Notes under the pieces: model-generated
Seen by the model: the letters and a program-made list of their open reading frames with translations, nothing else
Database searches by the model: none
What the model was told of the DNA's origin: nothing
Source: Thermus arciformis
Lineage (GTDB): Bacteria > Deinococcota > Deinococci > Deinococcales > Thermaceae
Direction of reading: 5' to 3'
NCBI RefSeq assembly: GCF_900102145.1
Contig: NZ_FNBC01000001.1
Coordinates: 62,001-126,000 of the forward strand
Length of the DNA stretch: 64,000 nucleotides
Shown here: positions 22,588-31,568 of the stretch, piece after piece
How positions within the stretch are numbered: the first letter of the stretch is position 1
How the letters are laid out: each line of letters begins with the position of its first letter
Position numbers and translations under genes: made by a program

Positions 22588-22611
22588 CCCCGTCCGGGGA
22601 CACGGACGGGG
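22588..22611. terminator. Hairpin terminator between convergent peptidase and roadblock operon
   Basis: CCCCGTCC (22588-22595) pairs with GGACGGGG (22604-22611). A competing stem GTCCCCG/CGGGGAC overlaps it. On the minus strand it is followed by CCTTTATATTC, a fair U-tract, so it most likely ends the recR-roadblock operon. Confidence 0.6.
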
Positions 22612-22625
22612 GCTTCAGGGGGTCT

Positions 22626-22892
22626 TTAGGCCTGGTTCTCCGCCACGGGCTCGGGGATGGGGCCGAAGGTCTCCTCGTAGCGGGCCACGTTCTCGGCCAG
22701 GCTCCGGAGGAGGGCCTTGGCGTGCTGCGGGCTCGTGATGACCCGGCTCACCACCAGGGCCCCGCCCTGGGGCTGGAGCAGGGCGAAGTCCAGGATGAAT
22801 TCGTTCTTGGTGTGGGCGATGAGGGCCAGGTTGGCGTAGCGGCCTAGGGCGGTGTCCTTGTCTATCTGAATGTCCAGTTTGAGCTCGTTCAT
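22626..22892 (-). CDS. DUF3467-like small protein
   Basis: 88 residues: IDKDTALGRYANLALIAHTKNEFILDFALLQPQGGALVVSRVITSPQHAKALLRSLAENVARYEETFGPI. The RYANLALI...EFILDF...SRVITSPQHAKAL blocks are diagnostic of DUF3467, a small protein family of unknown function. ATG overlaps the stop of the upstream roadblock gene (ATGA). Last gene of the ebfC-recR-roadblock operon, ending at a hairpin. Confidence 0.8.
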   Translation of the reverse strand: MNELKLDIQIDKDTALGRYANLALIAHTKNEFILDFALLQPQGGALVVSRVITSPQHAKALLRSLAENVARYEETFGPIPEPVAENQA

Positions 22893-23239
22893 CGGAGGGC
22901 CTCCTCTATCTTGGGCAGCACCTTCTTCAGCGTGAGCCGCGCCCGGCCTAGGCTTTTCACCCCGTCCAGGAACAGGAGAAGGTGGTGCCCGGGGAGGGGC
23001 GCCAGAAGGAGCGCCCCTTCGGGGTACTCTACCATGACCTCCTCCAGCCCCTCCTGGCCCAGGGTCTGGGCCAGGGCCTGGGCCGTGCCCAAGACGGTGG
23101 CGGCCCGGGCGGAGAGGAGGCTGGCTTCCGGGGCCCCTTCCTCCCGCGCCTCCTCCACCACGAAGCCATCCTCGCTGAGCAGGGCCGCCACCCGCACGCC
23201 CCGGGTGGCCTTGAGTTCCTTGAGGGCTTCCTCCACCAT
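22889..23239 (-). CDS. Roadblock/LC7 domain protein 3
   Basis: 116 residues, one roadblock/LC7 fold: LKATRGVRVAALLSEDGFVVEEA, the central helix with SARAATVLGTAQALAQTL, and VEYPEGALLLAPLPGHHLLLFLDG. Roadblock proteins are dimeric platforms; bacterial MglB is the GTPase-activating partner of MglA in cell polarity. No GTPase gene is adjacent. AGGAGG upstream of ATG 23239. It resembles classic MglB-type roadblocks most of the three. Confidence 0.78.
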   Translation of the reverse strand: MVEEALKELKATRGVRVAALLSEDGFVVEEAREEGAPEASLLSARAATVLGTAQALAQTLGQEGLEEVMVEYPEGALLLAPLPGHHLLLFLDGVKSLGRARLTLKKVLPKIEEALR

Positions 23240-23247
23240 GGTTCCTC

Positions 23248-23577
23248 CTAGAGGCCTTGCACCTTGAGGGCGATGCGGGAGAGCTCCTGGCCGATGGCCT
23301 TGCGGTCCATGCCCCGCTCAATCACCGCCCCGAGGATGTACTCCCCCACCTTCAAGGCCAAGACCTCCTGCTGGTCCGTGGCCAGGGTGAAGCGGCGCAC
23401 CTCCCCGGAAAGGGCTTCGGCCAGGGGGGCCATGTGGCGGGCCAGGGAGGCCAGTTCCGCCGCCAGGACCTCGGCGGGGGGGGCGCCCCGGCCCAGGGCC
23501 TCAATCACCAGGCCGTCCAGCCCCGTGAGGACCGCCCGCTTCACCCCCAAGGGGGCCAGGGTTTCTAGGTAAGCCAT
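23248..23577 (-). CDS. Roadblock/LC7-like protein 2
   Basis: 109 residues: LGVKRAVLTGLDGLVIEALGRG, AAELASLARHMAPLAEALSGE, TLATDQQEVLALKVGEYILGAVIERG. The strand-helix-strand-strand layout is that of a roadblock fold. Starts 13 bases inside the upstream gene. Together with its neighbours it probably forms hetero-dimers or higher assemblies. Confidence 0.72.
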   Translation of the reverse strand: MAYLETLAPLGVKRAVLTGLDGLVIEALGRGAPPAEVLAAELASLARHMAPLAEALSGEVRRFTLATDQQEVLALKVGEYILGAVIERGMDRKAIGQELSRIALKVQGL

Positions 23578-23972
23578 CCCGCCACCTCCAAAAGCCTTTC
23601 CGCGGCCTTGGCCGCCTGCCGGCGCGCCTGGCCGAGGTTGCCCCCGGCCTCGAGGAGGAGAAGGAGGAAAAGGCCCTTGCCCTCCCGGGACGGGGAACGA
23701 GCGCCCACCATGCGGGCATAGCCTACCACGGGATGCCCTCCCACCAGAAGCTCCTCCACCCTGGGGGTAAAGAGGCTTCCCGCGTAGGCGGCCTGGGCCT
23801 GGCGCAGGAGGGCGGCGTGCTCGGCCACGGCGGCCTCGAGGTCCACCCGCCTCCGCCCCACCCCTTCCACCAGGAGGCCTTCCAGGGTGCCCAAGGCGGC
23901 GGCGAAGGCGCCGTCCACCCGGGTTAAGAGCTCGTGCAGGAGGGTTTCGGTGGGGGCTTCGGGTTGGCGCAT
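23565..23972 (-). CDS. Roadblock-like protein 1
   Basis: 135 residues. FAAALGTLEGLLVEGVGRRRVDLEAAVAEHAALLRQAQ, then a strand-rich stretch with GYARMVGARSPSREGKGLFLLLLLEAGGNLGQARRQAAKAAERL. The pattern fits a longer roadblock domain, less certain than in the two following genes. ATG begins 2 bases after the recR stop (TAAAGATG), tying the cluster to recR in one transcript. Confidence 0.65.
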   Translation of the reverse strand: MRQPEAPTETLLHELLTRVDGAFAAALGTLEGLLVEGVGRRRVDLEAAVAEHAALLRQAQAAYAGSLFTPRVEELLVGGHPVVGYARMVGARSPSREGKGLFLLLLLEAGGNLGQARRQAAKAAERLLEVAGWLT

Positions 23973-23974
23973 CT

Positions 23975-24559
23975 TTAGAGGGGCTTTCTCCCCTCCAGGG
24001 CCCGGCCCAGGGTGACCTCGTCCACGTACTCTAGGCTTCCTCCCACGGGAAGCCCGTAGGCCAGGCGGCTCGCCTTCACTCCCCGCCTCTTAAGCTCCTC
24101 CGCCAGGTAAAGGGCCGTGGCCTCCCCCTCCACGGTCATGGAGGTGGCCAGCACCACCTCCCGCACCTGGGAGAGCCTGGGCCAAAGGCTTTCCAGGTTG
24201 AGCTCCTTGGGCCCCACCCCTTCCAAGGGGTTCAGGGCCCCGCCCAGGACGTGGTAGAGCCCTCTGAACTCCCCGCTCCTTTCCAGGGCGTAGAGGTCGG
24301 CCACCGTCTCCACCACGGCGAGGAGGGTGGGGTCCCGGCTCTCGTCCTGGCAGATGGGGCAAAGCTCCCCCTCCGCCAGGTTGCCGCAAAGACGGCACAC
24401 CCCAAGGCCCGAAAGGCCCGCCAAAGCCCCCTTGAGCTCCTCGGCCTCCTCCTTGTGGAAGGCCAGGTGGAGGGCGAGCTTCTGGGCGGTCTTGGGGCCG
24501 ATGCCGGGCAGGCGGGAGAGGGCCCGGGTGAGCTTGAGGAGGCTTTCCGGATACCTCAT
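23975..24559 (-). CDS. recR: Recombination mediator protein RecR
   Basis: 194 residues. N-terminal helix-hairpin-helix (LSRLPGIGPKTAQKLALHL), a C4 zinc finger (CRLCGNLAEGELCPIC), a Toprim domain (LLAVVETVADLYALE ... LNPLEGVGP) and the C-terminal YGLPVGGSLEYVDEVTLGRAL. With RecO/RecF it loads RecA on gapped DNA. Its ATG abuts the ebfC stop, the usual ebfC-recR pairing. Confidence 0.97.
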   Translation of the reverse strand: MRYPESLLKLTRALSRLPGIGPKTAQKLALHLAFHKEEAEELKGALAGLSGLGVCRLCGNLAEGELCPICQDESRDPTLLAVVETVADLYALERSGEFRGLYHVLGGALNPLEGVGPKELNLESLWPRLSQVREVVLATSMTVEGEATALYLAEELKRRGVKASRLAYGLPVGGSLEYVDEVTLGRALEGRKPL

Positions 24560-24877
24560 CTAGAAGAGCTTCCCCAGCATGTCCCCCACGCCCCCGAGCT
24601 CCCGGGCCATCTCCTTTTCCGAGAGCTCGCGGGCCTTCCTTTGGGCGTCCTGGATGGCCACCAGGAGGAGGTCCTCGAGGCCTTCCGGGTCGTCCTGGAA
24701 GGCCTTAAGGGCCTCGGGCTTGAGCCTTAGGGCGAGGATCCTCCCGTGGCCGTTGGCCTCCACCTCCACGAGGCCCTGGGCCGAGCCCACCACGGTCATG
24801 GCCTCCAGCCTCTCCTGGACCTCGGCGGCCTTCTTCTGGGCCTTCTGCGCTTCCTTGAGGAGCTTCTGCAGGTTCAT
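24560..24877 (-). CDS. ebfC: YbaB/EbfC family nucleoid-associated protein
   Basis: 105 residues: a coiled [21 protein letters not shown] start and conserved [22 protein letters not shown] dimeric DNA-binding protein commonly encoded before recR. ATG 24877 has GGGAGGGACG upstream; a TATACT box at 24898-24893 predicts a 9-base leader. First gene of the operon ebfC-recR-roadblock1-2-3-DUF3467. Confidence 0.94.
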
Positions 24878-27119: not shown

Positions 27120-28832
27120 TCAAGGGTTTCCCACCACCAGGTACGCCACCCTCCTCCCCTCCCGGGCCAGCACCAGGGTCCCCTCGGGCAGGGGGTAGAG
27201 GAGGAGGTCCTTTAGGCGCCGCGGCACCTCCCCTGCCTGGCCCACGTAGGCGGCGTCCTCCCGGAGGCGCAGGGAGAGGACGCTGTTGCCCACCTTCAGG
27301 GCCTGGGGCTCGGGGGTGAGGGAGAGGAGGTGGACCTCGCCCCCCAGGGTCTCCCGGGTGGGGGGGCGGCGGCCCAGGTACTCCCGGAGGGCCTCCGCCA
27401 GGGCCTCGGCCTCCTTCTCCAGGCCCAGGGCCCGGCCCACCTCCTGGAGGAAAGGAAGGGGGTCTGCGGGCCCCAGGCGCCTTAGGGTGAGCTCCAGGCC
27501 CTTGCGGGCGAAGTCCAGGAGGGCCTCTTCCGGGGCCTGGCGGTACTTCTCCGCCAGGGCGGGGCCGAAGGCCTCGGGCTGGAACTCCCCCTTGAGCCTG
27601 GCGGAGAGGGCCCGGAGGAGGCGGAGGTGGGCGTAGGCCTTCTCCGGGGAGAGGAGGCGGGCGAGCACCCGGCCCTCCGAGAGGAGCTCGTAGAGCCGGG
27701 GGGCGCTGCGGGCCTCGAGGCGGAGGTGGAGGAGGTCCCCTTCCCGCACCGCCCACACCTCCAGGTCCTCCCAGGGGAGGACCAGGGTTTCCTCCAGGGG
27801 GTGGTCCTCCCCGGCCAGGCCCAGGTGCCACACCCCTTCCGCCTGGCTCAGGGTGAGGGTGAGGGGCCCAAGCTGGACCCGGCCCGCCCTCAAGGGAAGG
27901 GTGGCGAGGTGCTCCCGGACCTCCCCCGGGGCCGGGACCTCGGGCCAGGGGGTCTCCCCTTGAGGGGTGGGGAGGAGGTTGAGGAGGGCGAGGACCTTTT
28001 CCATGGCCACCCGGAAGCGGCGCCTTTCCTCTTCCAGGAGGAGTTCCCGCCGCCTCTCCTCCTGGGCCTCCTTCTTGAGGCGCTCCTCCAGGCGGGCGAC
28101 CTCCTGGGCGCTTGCGCCAAGCCGCTTGGCCTCCTCCAGGGCCCGCCTTAGGGCCAGGAGGTCCCTCTTGGGGGGAAGGCCGAAGGCCCCGTCCCACTCC
28201 AGGAGGCGGTTGAGGAAGCGGCGCAAGTAGGCGCGGGTCTCCTCCGGGGGCAAGGGCAGGTCCTTGGGCAGGTGGAGGGCGGTCTCCAGGTACTCCTGGA
28301 GGAGGGCCCCGGCCACCTTGGGGTCCTCGAGGTCCAAGAGGGTGTCGGAGAGGGAGGGGATGGGGTGGCTCGGGGTGAAGCGGGAGAGGTTGAAGTCCCG
28401 CCGGAAGCCCTCGGTCTCCCGGTAAGTCTGGTAGTTTTGCAAGAAGGCGTGGATGAGCCTGAGCTCCTCCCGCCTTCCCGAGAGGAACTCCTTGGCCTTG
28501 GCCTGGACCTCCCGGAGGGCGAGGAGGCGCCAGACCTTGAGGGCAAGGCTTCTGAGGTCCTGGGGCTTTTCCTCGGGCGCCTCCTGGGGGGTTTCCTCCA
28601 GGAGGGGGGGAAGTTCTGGGGGAGGGGCCTCGGGGGCTTTGGCCTCCCTCAGGGCCCGGAAGCGGGCGTCCGCCTGGCGGAAGCGCTTGGCGAGGGGGGC
28701 GGGGAGCCGGCTTTGTATGAGGAGGGAGCGGAGCTCCAACAGGGCCCTTTTCCCCCCCTTGGGGGTGCGGCCTTGGAGGAGGTCCTCCACCCGGTACTCG
28801 TAGAGGTCCACCAGGTCGGCCAGGCGCTCCAC
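27120..28832 (-). CDS. Hypothetical 570-residue coiled-coil protein
   Basis: Not recognised. GTG start at 28832 (TAGGAT box 6 bases ahead, leaderless). No signal peptide or membrane helix. Residues 1-70 are helical and basic; 70-95 is a Pro/Glu-rich linker; 95-270 is largely helical with Lys/Arg/Glu-rich stretches (EERLKKEAQEERRRELLLEEERR) that suggest a coiled coil; from about 300 the sequence alternates beta-like and helical segments (LPLRAGRVQLGPLTLTLSQAEGVWHLGLAGE, LLHLRLEARSAPRLYELLSEGRV, and a strand-rich C-terminus). It is divergent from the PP2C-kinase operon and shares its promoter region, hinting at a link to that signalling unit. Confidence 0.75.
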   Translation of the reverse strand: MERLADLVDLYEYRVEDLLQGRTPKGGKRALLELRSLLIQSRLPAPLAKRFRQADARFRALREAKAPEAPPPELPPLLEETPQEAPEEKPQDLRSLALKVWRLLALREVQAKAKEFLSGRREELRLIHAFLQNYQTYRETEGFRRDFNLSRFTPSHPIPSLSDTLLDLEDPKVAGALLQEYLETALHLPKDLPLPPEETRAYLRRFLNRLLEWDGAFGLPPKRDLLALRRALEEAKRLGASAQEVARLEERLKKEAQEERRRELLLEEERRRFRVAMEKVLALLNLLPTPQGETPWPEVPAPGEVREHLATLPLRAGRVQLGPLTLTLSQAEGVWHLGLAGEDHPLEETLVLPWEDLEVWAVREGDLLHLRLEARSAPRLYELLSEGRVLARLLSPEKAYAHLRLLRALSARLKGEFQPEAFGPALAEKYRQAPEEALLDFARKGLELTLRRLGPADPLPFLQEVGRALGLEKEAEALAEALREYLGRRPPTRETLGGEVHLLSLTPEPQALKVGNSVLSLRLREDAAYVGQAGEVPRRLKDLLLYPLPEGTLVLAREGRRVAYLVVGNP

Positions 28833-28838
28833 CCCTTC

Positions 28839-28850
28839 ATCCTATACAAT
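28839..28850. promoter_or_regulatory. Overlapping divergent -10 boxes (hypothetical / PP2C)
   Basis: Minus TAGGAT (28844-28839) is exactly 6 bases before GTG 28832; plus TACAAT (28845-28850) is 7 bases before ATG 28858. Both transcripts are predicted leaderless from a 25-base gap. Confidence 0.55.
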
Positions 28851-28857
28851 GGGTCCG

Positions 28858-29613
28858 ATGCGCCTGGCCCCTCGCCTCCTGGTGGCCGCCGTTTCCCACG
28901 TGGGGCGCCGCCAAAACAACGAGGACTTCCACCGCGTCCTCCGCCTGGAGGTGCCCCCGGGACAGCTCGTCCTCCTGGCCGTGGCCGACGGCATGGGGGG
29001 GATGGAGGCGGGGGAGTGGGCGAGCAAGGTGGCCATAGAGGCCCTCTCCGAGGCGGCGCGGGCCTACGCCGAACACCTCAAGGGGGGCCGTCCCGCCGTG
29101 GGGCTTCCCCGGGTGATGGAAAAGGCCTTCGCCCTGGCCCAGAGGCGGGTGGAGAAGGAGGCGGAAAAGCCGGGCCGCCGGGGGATGGGCACCACCCTCA
29201 CCGCCTTCCTCTACGCCGACTGGCTCAAGGAGGGGGTGGTGGGGCACATCGGGGACTCCCGGGCCTACCGCTTCGGCCCCGCCGGGATCTTCCGCCTCAC
29301 CGAGGACCACTCCTGGGTGGCGGAGCGCCTCAAGGAAGGGGTCCTTACCCCCACGGAGGCGGAGCGCCACCCCTACCGCCACGTCCTCACCCGGGCCTTG
29401 GGCCTGCCCGAGGCCCGCTTTGACCTCGTCCCCGTGCGCCTCGCCCCGGGGGAGGGGGTTCTCTTGGTGACGGACGGCCTCTACGGCCTGGTCCCCGAGG
29501 CGGAGTGGCGCTTGGAGAAGGACCTGCAGGGAAGCCTCGAGGCCCTCCTCTCCGAGGCCTTGCGCCGGGGCGGGGACGACAACATCACCGCCGTGGCCCT
29601 GAGGGTGGAGTGA
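28858..29613 (+). CDS. PP2C-family Ser/Thr protein phosphatase
   Basis: 251 residues, cytosolic. Metal motifs: RQNNEDF (Asp23), VADGMGG (Asp44), GMGTTLTA, GHIGDSRAYRF, LTEDHSW, VTDGLYGLV and DDNITAVAL. PP2C enzymes reverse phosphorylation by Hanks-type kinases; the next gene encodes such a kinase and starts on this stop codon (TGATG). ATG 28849 is an alternative start (three more residues). Confidence 0.93.
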   Translation: MRLAPRLLVAAVSHVGRRQNNEDFHRVLRLEVPPGQLVLLAVADGMGGMEAGEWASKVAIEALSEAARAYAEHLKGGRPAVGLPRVMEKAFALAQRRVEKEAEKPGRRGMGTTLTAFLYADWLKEGVVGHIGDSRAYRFGPAGIFRLTEDHSWVAERLKEGVLTPTEAERHPYRHVLTRALGLPEARFDLVPVRLAPGEGVLLVTDGLYGLVPEAEWRLEKDLQGSLEALLSEALRRGGDDNITAVALRVE

Positions 29614-31568
29614 TGCACCTCCTTTTGGCCTTCCTCCTCGTCCTCCTCACCGCGGCCTTGGCCGCGCGCCTTTCCCCTTGGCCCTTGGCCCTCCTCCTCG
29701 CCTTCCTCGCCGGGGCGGGGGTGGCCTTGGGGGTGAGGCCGGAGGCGGCCCTTCCTTGGCTCCTTTTGGCCCTCGGGGCCCTGGCGGCCCCCAGGGTCTA
29801 CCTGGGCCCGAGGCGCCGCTCTGCTAGGCGGCGGCCTGCGCGGGAGAAGAACCCCACCCGCGCCAAGACCACGGAGGAGGCCCAGGCCCTGGCCCAGCGC
29901 TACGAGATCCTGGAGAAGGTGGGCATCGGGGGGATGGCCACGGTCTACAAGGCCAAGGAGAAGAAGACGGGCCGCCTGGTGGCCCTCAAGGTGCCCCAGG
30001 AGCGCTTCGTGGGGGACCCCCGGTTCGTGCGCCGTTTCCACCGGGAGGCGGAGGTGCTGGCCAGGATGGACCACCCCAACATCGTCAAGGTCTACGACCA
30101 CGGCCAGGTGGATGGGGTCCACTTCATCGCCATGGAGTTTTTGGAGGGGGAGGGCCTGGACAAGCTCATTGAGGAGAGGCGCCTGAACCTCCGCCAGGCC
30201 GCCGCCATCCTGGCCCGGGTGGCGGACGCCCTGAGGCACATCCACGCCCAGGGCATCGTCCACCGGGACATCAAGCCGGGGAACATCATGGTCCTCAAGG
30301 GGGCCCTGCGGGAGGACGGGGTGGACCCCCGGGGGGTGCGCCTCATGGACTTCGGCATCGCCGCGGGGAAGGTCCTCACCCGCCTCACCATCACCGGGGC
30401 CCGCATCGGCACCCCCGTGTACATGAGCCCCGAGCAGGCCAAGGGGCAGAAGCTGGACCACCGCTCGGACATCTACTCCCTGGGCATCGTCCTCTACGAG
30501 GCCCTCACCGGCCAGCCCCCCTTCACCGGGGGGTACGAGACCGTGATCCACCAGCAGATCTTCCAGGTGCCCACCCCTCCCAAACAGCTTAGGCCCGAGA
30601 TCCCCCAGGCCCTTTCCGACCTGGTCCTGAGGATGCTGGAGAAGGACCCGGCCAAGCGGCCTGGCCTCGAGGAGGTGATCCGCGTCCTGGAGGGCCCCTG
30701 GGACGAGGAGCGGGGCCTTGCCCACCCCCATTACCTCCTCCTCGGGGTGGAGGCCAAGAAGGGCACGGTGCGCCTTTTGGACCTGGAGGGCACCCCGGTC
30801 CGCCTCCTCTCCGGCATCGGCTCGGCCCCCGGCCACTTCCCGGCCCCCCCCTTGGCCGTGGCCGCCGACCCCGAGGGGGGGATCTGGGTCTCCGTCTTTG
30901 AGCACGGGGCCAAGATGCTCCACCGCTTCTCTCCGGAAGGCGAGCTCCTCCTCTCCACGGGGCCCTACGGGATGAAGCCCGGGGAGTTCCTCTTCCCCCT
31001 GGGCCTCGCCGTGGCCCAGGAGGCCCTCTTCGTCCTGGACGGGGAGACGGCCACCATAAGCCGGCTGGACCTCGCGGGGCGGTACCAGGGGCGCTTCGGG
31101 GGGCAGGGCCTCGGGCGGGGCACCTTCCAGGACCCCAAGGCCCTGGTGGCCTCGGGGGAGTTCCTCTTCGTCTTGGACTACGGCAACCGCCAGGTGCAGC
31201 GCCTTTCCCTGGACGGGCGCTACCTTTCCCGCTACGCCTTCCGCCGCTCCAAGGAAAGCGAGGAGCTCAGGCTCTTGGGCGGGGTGGGGGTGGAGGGGGA
31301 AAGGCTTTACCTTTACGACACCGAGGCGGCCAAGGTGCGGGCGCTGGACCTCTCCGGGGCCCTCCTCGCCTCCTACCCCCTTCCCCTGCTTGAGGGGGAG
31401 GACCGGATGAGCCTGGTGGAGCTCCTGCCCTTCCAGGGGGTCCTCTACGCCGCCCGGCGGGGGAGCTCCCGGGTGCACCGGGTTGACCTCAGGACCGGAG
31501 AGCCTCTCCCTCCCTTAGAGGTCTACGCCCCGGTGCGGGCCTTGGCCCTGTGGCGGAACCCGGCATGA
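29613..31568 (+). CDS. Hanks-type Ser/Thr protein kinase with C-terminal NHL-like propeller
   Basis: 651 residues. The N-terminus has two or three hydrophobic helices (about 1-62) and a basic linker (RRRSARRRPAR). Kinase domain about 97-370: GIGGMATVY loop, Lys126 in VALKVP, Glu145, catalytic HRDIKPGN (Asp219), DFG (Asp246), GTPVYMSPEQ. From about 390 come repeated blades (GSAPGHFPAPPLAVAADPEGGIWV, GEFLFPLGLAVAQEALFVLD, GTFQDPKALVASGEFLFVLD) like an NHL propeller. Unlike PknD-type kinases there is no membrane helix between kinase and propeller, so both should face the same side. Confidence 0.92.
   Translation: MHLLLAFLLVLLTAALAARLSPWPLALLLAFLAGAGVALGVRPEAALPWLLLALGALAAPRVYLGPRRRSARRRPAREKNPTRAKTTEEAQALAQRYEILEKVGIGGMATVYKAKEKKTGRLVALKVPQERFVGDPRFVRRFHREAEVLARMDHPNIVKVYDHGQVDGVHFIAMEFLEGEGLDKLIEERRLNLRQAAAILARVADALRHIHAQGIVHRDIKPGNIMVLKGALREDGVDPRGVRLMDFGIAAGKVLTRLTITGARIGTPVYMSPEQAKGQKLDHRSDIYSLGIVLYEALTGQPPFTGGYETVIHQQIFQVPTPPKQLRPEIPQALSDLVLRMLEKDPAKRPGLEEVIRVLEGPWDEERGLAHPHYLLLGVEAKKGTVRLLDLEGTPVRLLSGIGSAPGHFPAPPLAVAADPEGGIWVSVFEHGAKMLHRFSPEGELLLSTGPYGMKPGEFLFPLGLAVAQEALFVLDGETATISRLDLAGRYQGRFGGQGLGRGTFQDPKALVASGEFLFVLDYGNRQVQRLSLDGRYLSRYAFRRSKESEELRLLGGVGVEGERLYLYDTEAAKVRALDLSGALLASYPLPLLEGEDRMSLVELLPFQGVLYAARRGSSRVHRVDLRTGEPLPPLEVYAPVRALALWRNPA

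Follow-up and report, generated by a model that had tools for sequence, protein, structure and literature searches.

A conserved tandem array of three roadblock paralogues in Deinococcota, one of them an MglC orthologue by sequence, is probably part of a cell-polarity system

Introduction

The Myxococcus protein MglC takes part in deciding which end of the cell leads. In Myxococcus xanthus, this roadblock protein (7ct3/7cy1; PMC7949163, PMC10329633) binds MglB, the GTPase-activating protein (GAP) of MglA, through residues F25, D26 and I28 (the FDI surface), with R115 and K120 of MglB as the MglC-binding pair, and MglA-GTP splits MglC from MglB (PMC10329633). A second MglC surface, formed by K104, R106 and R110 (KRR), serves for binding RomR in the same organism, and the conserved MglB serines S54 and S57 have been reported as contacts of MglA (PMC7949163). 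Structures of MglB from Thermus and Myxococcus have been solved (3t12, 6h5b). In Thermus thermophilus, type IV pili are biased to one pole, with upstream movement in flow, and published accounts call the control of pole choice unclear (PMC12393216, PMC12024867). In mglA and mglB mutants of this species, the positioning of pili at a single pole is affected, as these two papers relate it, citing Salzer et al. 2015. Here we describe a locus from Thermus arciformis with three roadblock genes in tandem and compare it with these systems.

Results

A minus-strand operon with three roadblock genes

In the window (the whole stretch of T. arciformis DNA that was analysed, 64,000 nucleotides), ebfC, recR, three roadblock genes designated R1, R2 and R3, and a gene for a DUF3467 protein form a single tight operon on the minus strand, in which adjacent genes, from ebfC through to the DUF3467 gene, overlap slightly or lie no more than 9 bases apart. 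The operon ends in a terminator-like hairpin, which is weak evidence alone, two such sites having been found against 1.7 expected. The features referred to below are:

24560-24877, minus strand: ebfC/ybaB, first gene of the run (TIGR00103, 55.4 bits)
23975-24559, minus strand: recR, upstream operon neighbour of R1 (TIGR00615, 214.7 bits)
23565-23972, minus strand: R1, 135 aa, roadblock fold, MglC orthologue by sequence (Robl_LC7, 18.9 bits)
23248-23577, minus strand: R2, 109 aa, roadblock paralogue, 13-base overlap with R1 (Robl_LC7, 29.3 bits)
22889-23239, minus strand: R3, 116 aa, MglB-like roadblock protein (Robl_LC7, 48.5 bits)
22626-22892, minus strand: DUF3467 protein, 88 aa, 4-base overlap with R3 (PF11950, 75.8 bits)
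22588-22611, minus strand: terminator-like hairpin past the DUF3467 gene (consensus match)
28849-29613, plus strand: PP2C-type phosphatase (PF13672, 52.8 bits)
29643-31568, plus strand, start codon provisional: Ser/Thr protein kinase, partner of the PP2C gene (PF00069, 186 bits)

R2 and R3 exceed the Pfam cut-off for Robl_LC7 (23 bits), which places them in the roadblock/LC7 superfamily; R1 falls below it and belongs there by the match of its profile to the solved structure of MglC. The DUF3467 protein is a clear member of PF11950 (cut-off 25 bits). An AlphaFold model of R2 has a roadblock fold (mean pLDDT 96.4), with a TM score of 0.87 to MglB, and also matches subunits of the eukaryotic Ragulator. 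The open reading frames, the Pfam matches, the R1-MglC profile alignment and the R2 model thus bear out a preliminary description of the window, in which three tandem roadblock proteins and a DUF3467 protein had been read from the recR operon and structure prediction proposed as a check on the fold. Its further statement that the operon lacks a GTPase holds locally, with none encoded nearby, but not for the genome as a whole, which carries mglB-mglA, with an MglB of its own, on a different contig.

Three ancient paralogue groups

We surveyed 38 loci from 30 genera of Deinococcota. Profiles built for the R1, R2 and R3 groups separated the roadblock proteins cleanly in nearly all of these loci, and the gene order was R1-R2-R3 in every locus having all three. 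A tree built from 98 roadblock sequences placed R1, R2, MglB and MglC each on one side of a branch, R2 forming a clade of its own (support 99/94); R3 was related to MglB, its exact placement hanging on a long branch. The roadblock paralogues of the array are thus old, all three of them, and since their orthologues are conserved throughout the phylum, the array is not a product of chance. Individual members have been lost, R1 in Meiothermus and Calidithermus, which retain R2, R3 and MglA, and R2 in many Trueperaceae. A search of Myxococcota with R2 gave no match, a result that shows little, as it was run without a positive control. In one Thermus genome (G062:C4:893091-893414), R1 contains an in-frame TAG, with R3 and the DUF3467 gene open.

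R1 is an MglC orthologue by sequence, and R3 resembles MglB

The R1 profile aligned over its full length with the solved M. xanthus MglC (7ct3) at E = 1.7e-23, about 50 bits ahead of the next solved protein (E = 4.6e-8). When the genomes of two Corallococcus, another member of the Myxococcota and one of the Nitrospirota were queried with R1, each returned a single protein, an MglC homologue, and in the 98-protein tree R1 and MglC form a common clade (support 100/97). On the strength of this best and exclusive match and the shared clade, the sequences identify R1 as the orthologue of MglC, which places MglC-type proteins outside the myxobacteria, as members of a roadblock array.

The residues by which MglC binds its partners are unevenly retained. 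Among 26 aligned R1 sequences, the position of D26 is D in 25 and that of I28 is L in all 26, likely counterparts of the acidic and hydrophobic residues contacting MglB in the M. xanthus model; the F25 position is mostly M. In the window's own R1, the D is replaced by E. The RomR-binding KRR surface, in contrast, is only partly present: R106 is kept in 23/26 sequences, the K104 position is K in 12 and Q in 7, and R110 is not conserved. It is RomR binding in M. xanthus that this surface characterises, and not membership of the MglC family. R1 differs from MglC also in its setting, in tandem with R2 and R3 and either adjoining recR or near a PP2C-kinase pair.

The closest solved structures to R3 are archaeal roadblock proteins and MglB. 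Where MglB has R115, all 31 aligned R3 sequences have R, and at the position of K120, K or R occurs in 28/31, a predicted mapping based on the alignment. R3 nevertheless departs from MglB in three respects. It is not encoded beside mglA, the genome having a separate, true MglB there; it lacks the C-terminal extension; and it has no counterpart of a TSLASLTAGN-type stretch that is kept in Deinococcota MglB and that falls, by alignment, in the MglA-contacting S54/S57 region. The N of this motif is present in 12/12 Deinococcota MglB sequences in a column comparison, and both it and its neighbours are missing from R3. R3 is therefore probably an MglB-like protein that does not act as a GAP.

The array is lost together with MglA

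MglA was found in 99/111 genomes. Among the 85 good genomes (≥90% complete, ≤5% contaminated), an R3 orthologue (E < 1e-15) was present in 77 of the 80 with MglA and in none of the 5 without it (Fisher p = 1.7e-6; about 8e-5, by hand, if a degenerate R3 relic of 42 bits in G100 is counted as present, giving 1/5), values that overstate the co-loss because the losses are not independent and amount to about three events only, one in a single genus (G104-G107) and the others in the separate genera of G100 and G110. A Pfam roadblock search of these six genomes returned nothing above the cut-off. Within genus g29, G103 has both MglA and R3, whereas G104-G107 are without either. A few genomes fit the pattern less neatly. 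In G087 and G097, MglA is present and no array was found in the fragmented assemblies; G081 has a divergent pair beside DUF3467, which we counted as absent; and in G108 and G109 there is an R3-like gene, with no R1 found. Given that G104, G106 and G107 retain PilT, and all of G104-G107 retain DUF3467, the array tracks MglA more closely than it tracks pili or DUF3467.

Since R1 is a relative of MglC and the array disappears together with MglA, the trio probably belongs to a cell-polarity system rather than to DNA repair. More specifically, we favour, at a probability of roughly 60%, its identification as a roadblock scaffold that contains MglC and serves the MglA/MglB type-IV-pilus polarity module of Deinococcota. 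Counting against this identification are the small number of independent losses, the relic in G100, the missing array in G087 and G097, the lack of R1 in Meiothermus and Calidithermus despite their MglA, the incomplete KRR surface of R1 and the distance of the array from mglA. One suggestion of the preliminary description, that the roadblock proteins act on a GTPase encoded elsewhere, is thus upheld, as far as orthology and the loss or decay of the array in MglA-lacking genomes can speak to it.

A phosphatase-kinase pair near the array

In Trueperaceae, the array is followed by DUF3467, a DsbA-like gene, a PP2C phosphatase and a Ser/Thr kinase. The same phosphatase-kinase pair lies about 4 kb from the array, on the far side of recR, in Thermus and Meiothermus. 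Families f2 and f3 have the pair away from the array. The block of MFS gene, unknown gene, PP2C and kinase that neighbours the array in Thermus stands, in genus g13, near mglB-mglA instead, with one gene between (L202:4166-12951, G011:C2). None of the loci examined has the array itself adjoining mglA. The unknown gene of the block, at 27120-28832 on the minus strand of the window, encodes a 570-aa protein without a Pfam match, located between the MFS gene and PP2C and conserved in Thermaceae and g13. A second PP2C-like gene in the window's genome (G000:C66:30840-31559) has one in-frame TAG.

This linkage, together with the absence of PilT from three MglA-lacking good genomes (G100, G105 and G110), lends some colour to an alternative in which the target of the trio is a GTPase or NTPase other than MglA, or else a pathway run by a Ser/Thr kinase, and the joint disappearance with MglA is only one part of a general loss of surface behaviour. 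We consider this unlikely. The genomes G104, G106 and G107 have kept PilT and DUF3467, yet have neither MglA nor the array; a PP2C homologue persists in G104 and G106 despite the same losses; R1-MglC orthology points to MglA and MglB; and in g13 it is mglBA that the phosphatase-kinase block accompanies.

Linkage to recR and ebfC is limited to some lineages

The array comes after recR and ebfC in all 14 loci sampled from Thermaceae and two related families, and the linkage that the preliminary description proposed to look for in relatives was present in Thermus, Meiothermus and Calidithermus. This tight run, and the membership of EbfC in a nucleoid-associated family, are what speaks for a stand-alone roadblock platform that would serve RecR and EbfC in DNA repair or nucleoid positioning without any GTPase. 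Such a platform is highly improbable: recR and ebfC are absent from every sampled array locus of the Deinococcales MAGs and Trueperaceae, where the order of the array is kept beside unrelated genes, array presence follows MglA, and R1 is of the MglC type. A link to DNA repair or chromosome positioning, which the preliminary description had put forward, was accordingly rejected as the main reading, the recR adjacency being confined to some lineages. The literature found on roadblock and recR together consisted mostly of unrelated uses of the word 'roadblock'.

A proposed role of the array in MglA-dependent polarity

Returning to the polarity reading, we infer that dimers of R1, R2 and R3 could stack, and that the stacked scaffold would use R1 to recruit the GAP MglB, in the manner of Myxococcus MglC. 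R3 might then act as a second, MglB-like partner, competing with MglB or relaying it on the same face of R1, and R2, the paralogue that some lineages do without, may add a further layer. A scaffold of this kind would set where MglA-GTP persists and, with it, the pole at which type IV pili are active. An input could come from the neighbouring PP2C phosphatase and Ser/Thr kinase, which the gene linkage makes plausible. The full arrangement, a three-layer scaffold (MglC-R2-R3) with Ser/Thr kinase/PP2C input that positions MglA and type IV pili in Deinococcota in place of RomR/Frz, is put forward only tentatively; if true, it would be an MglA polarity circuit made of roadblock paralogues rather than of RomR and Frz signalling. 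By analogy, the possible stacking of distinct roadblock proteins into one scaffold recalls the eukaryotic Ragulator/Rag assembly, although the array is known here from genes and predicted folds.

For the question of pole choice in Thermus, the array offers three concrete candidate genes, one of them an apparent MglC orthologue. As Thermus has solved structures of both MglA and MglB, and the genes are now named, the question becomes directly testable. Our literature search returned no paper joining MglC, Deinococcus and polarity; an earlier mention is possible.

The DUF3467 protein

R3 and DUF3467 are adjacent in most genomes, which agrees with the preliminary description in making DUF3467 part of the platform; at the same time, DUF3467 is lost or kept independently of MglA and the array, so that this part of the description is only partly supported. 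The gene persists in G100 as well as in G104-G107, whereas family f2 has the array but no DUF3467. Outside Deinococcota, DUF3467 genes with no roadblock gene next to them are found in Myxococcota, Elusimicrobiota, WOR-1 and Nitrospirota (L151-L183), and the DUF3467 loci in plasmids and Myxococcota offered neither a roadblock partner nor a clue to function. The predicted structure is beta-beta-beta-alpha (pLDDT 80.6). Foldseek searches with this model gave no significant match (best E = 0.069), and the best VIA-align score (Z = 4.9, to COMM, Pur-alpha and PC4 folds) was counted as no result; the likeness may reflect only a common arrangement of the predicted elements.

Adjacency to R3 and this very weak resemblance to PC4/Pur-alpha and COMM domains (Z < 5) could be taken to mean that the operon exerts its function through DUF3467, with the roadblock proteins as the scaffold of this protein and nucleic acid as the target of the unit. 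We regard this as highly improbable, the fold match being non-significant, DUF3467 occurring without the array in G104-G107, Myxococcota and others, and the array occurring without DUF3467 in f2. The actinobacterial conservons (CvnA-D) likewise set a roadblock protein beside a small protein without annotated function and have kinase genes in the surrounding region; classification of the array as a conservon was rejected, since its operon is without a GTPase and without a CvnA-type histidine kinase, the linked kinase is of the Ser/Thr type, and DUF3467 is not of the CvnC family.

DUF3467 also has other neighbours. In G108 (L095:3751-5211), an ATP-cone/AAA protein is encoded directly upstream of DUF3467, with no roadblock gene beside it, and in Corallococcus, DUF3467 adjoins an alpha/beta-hydrolase-like gene.
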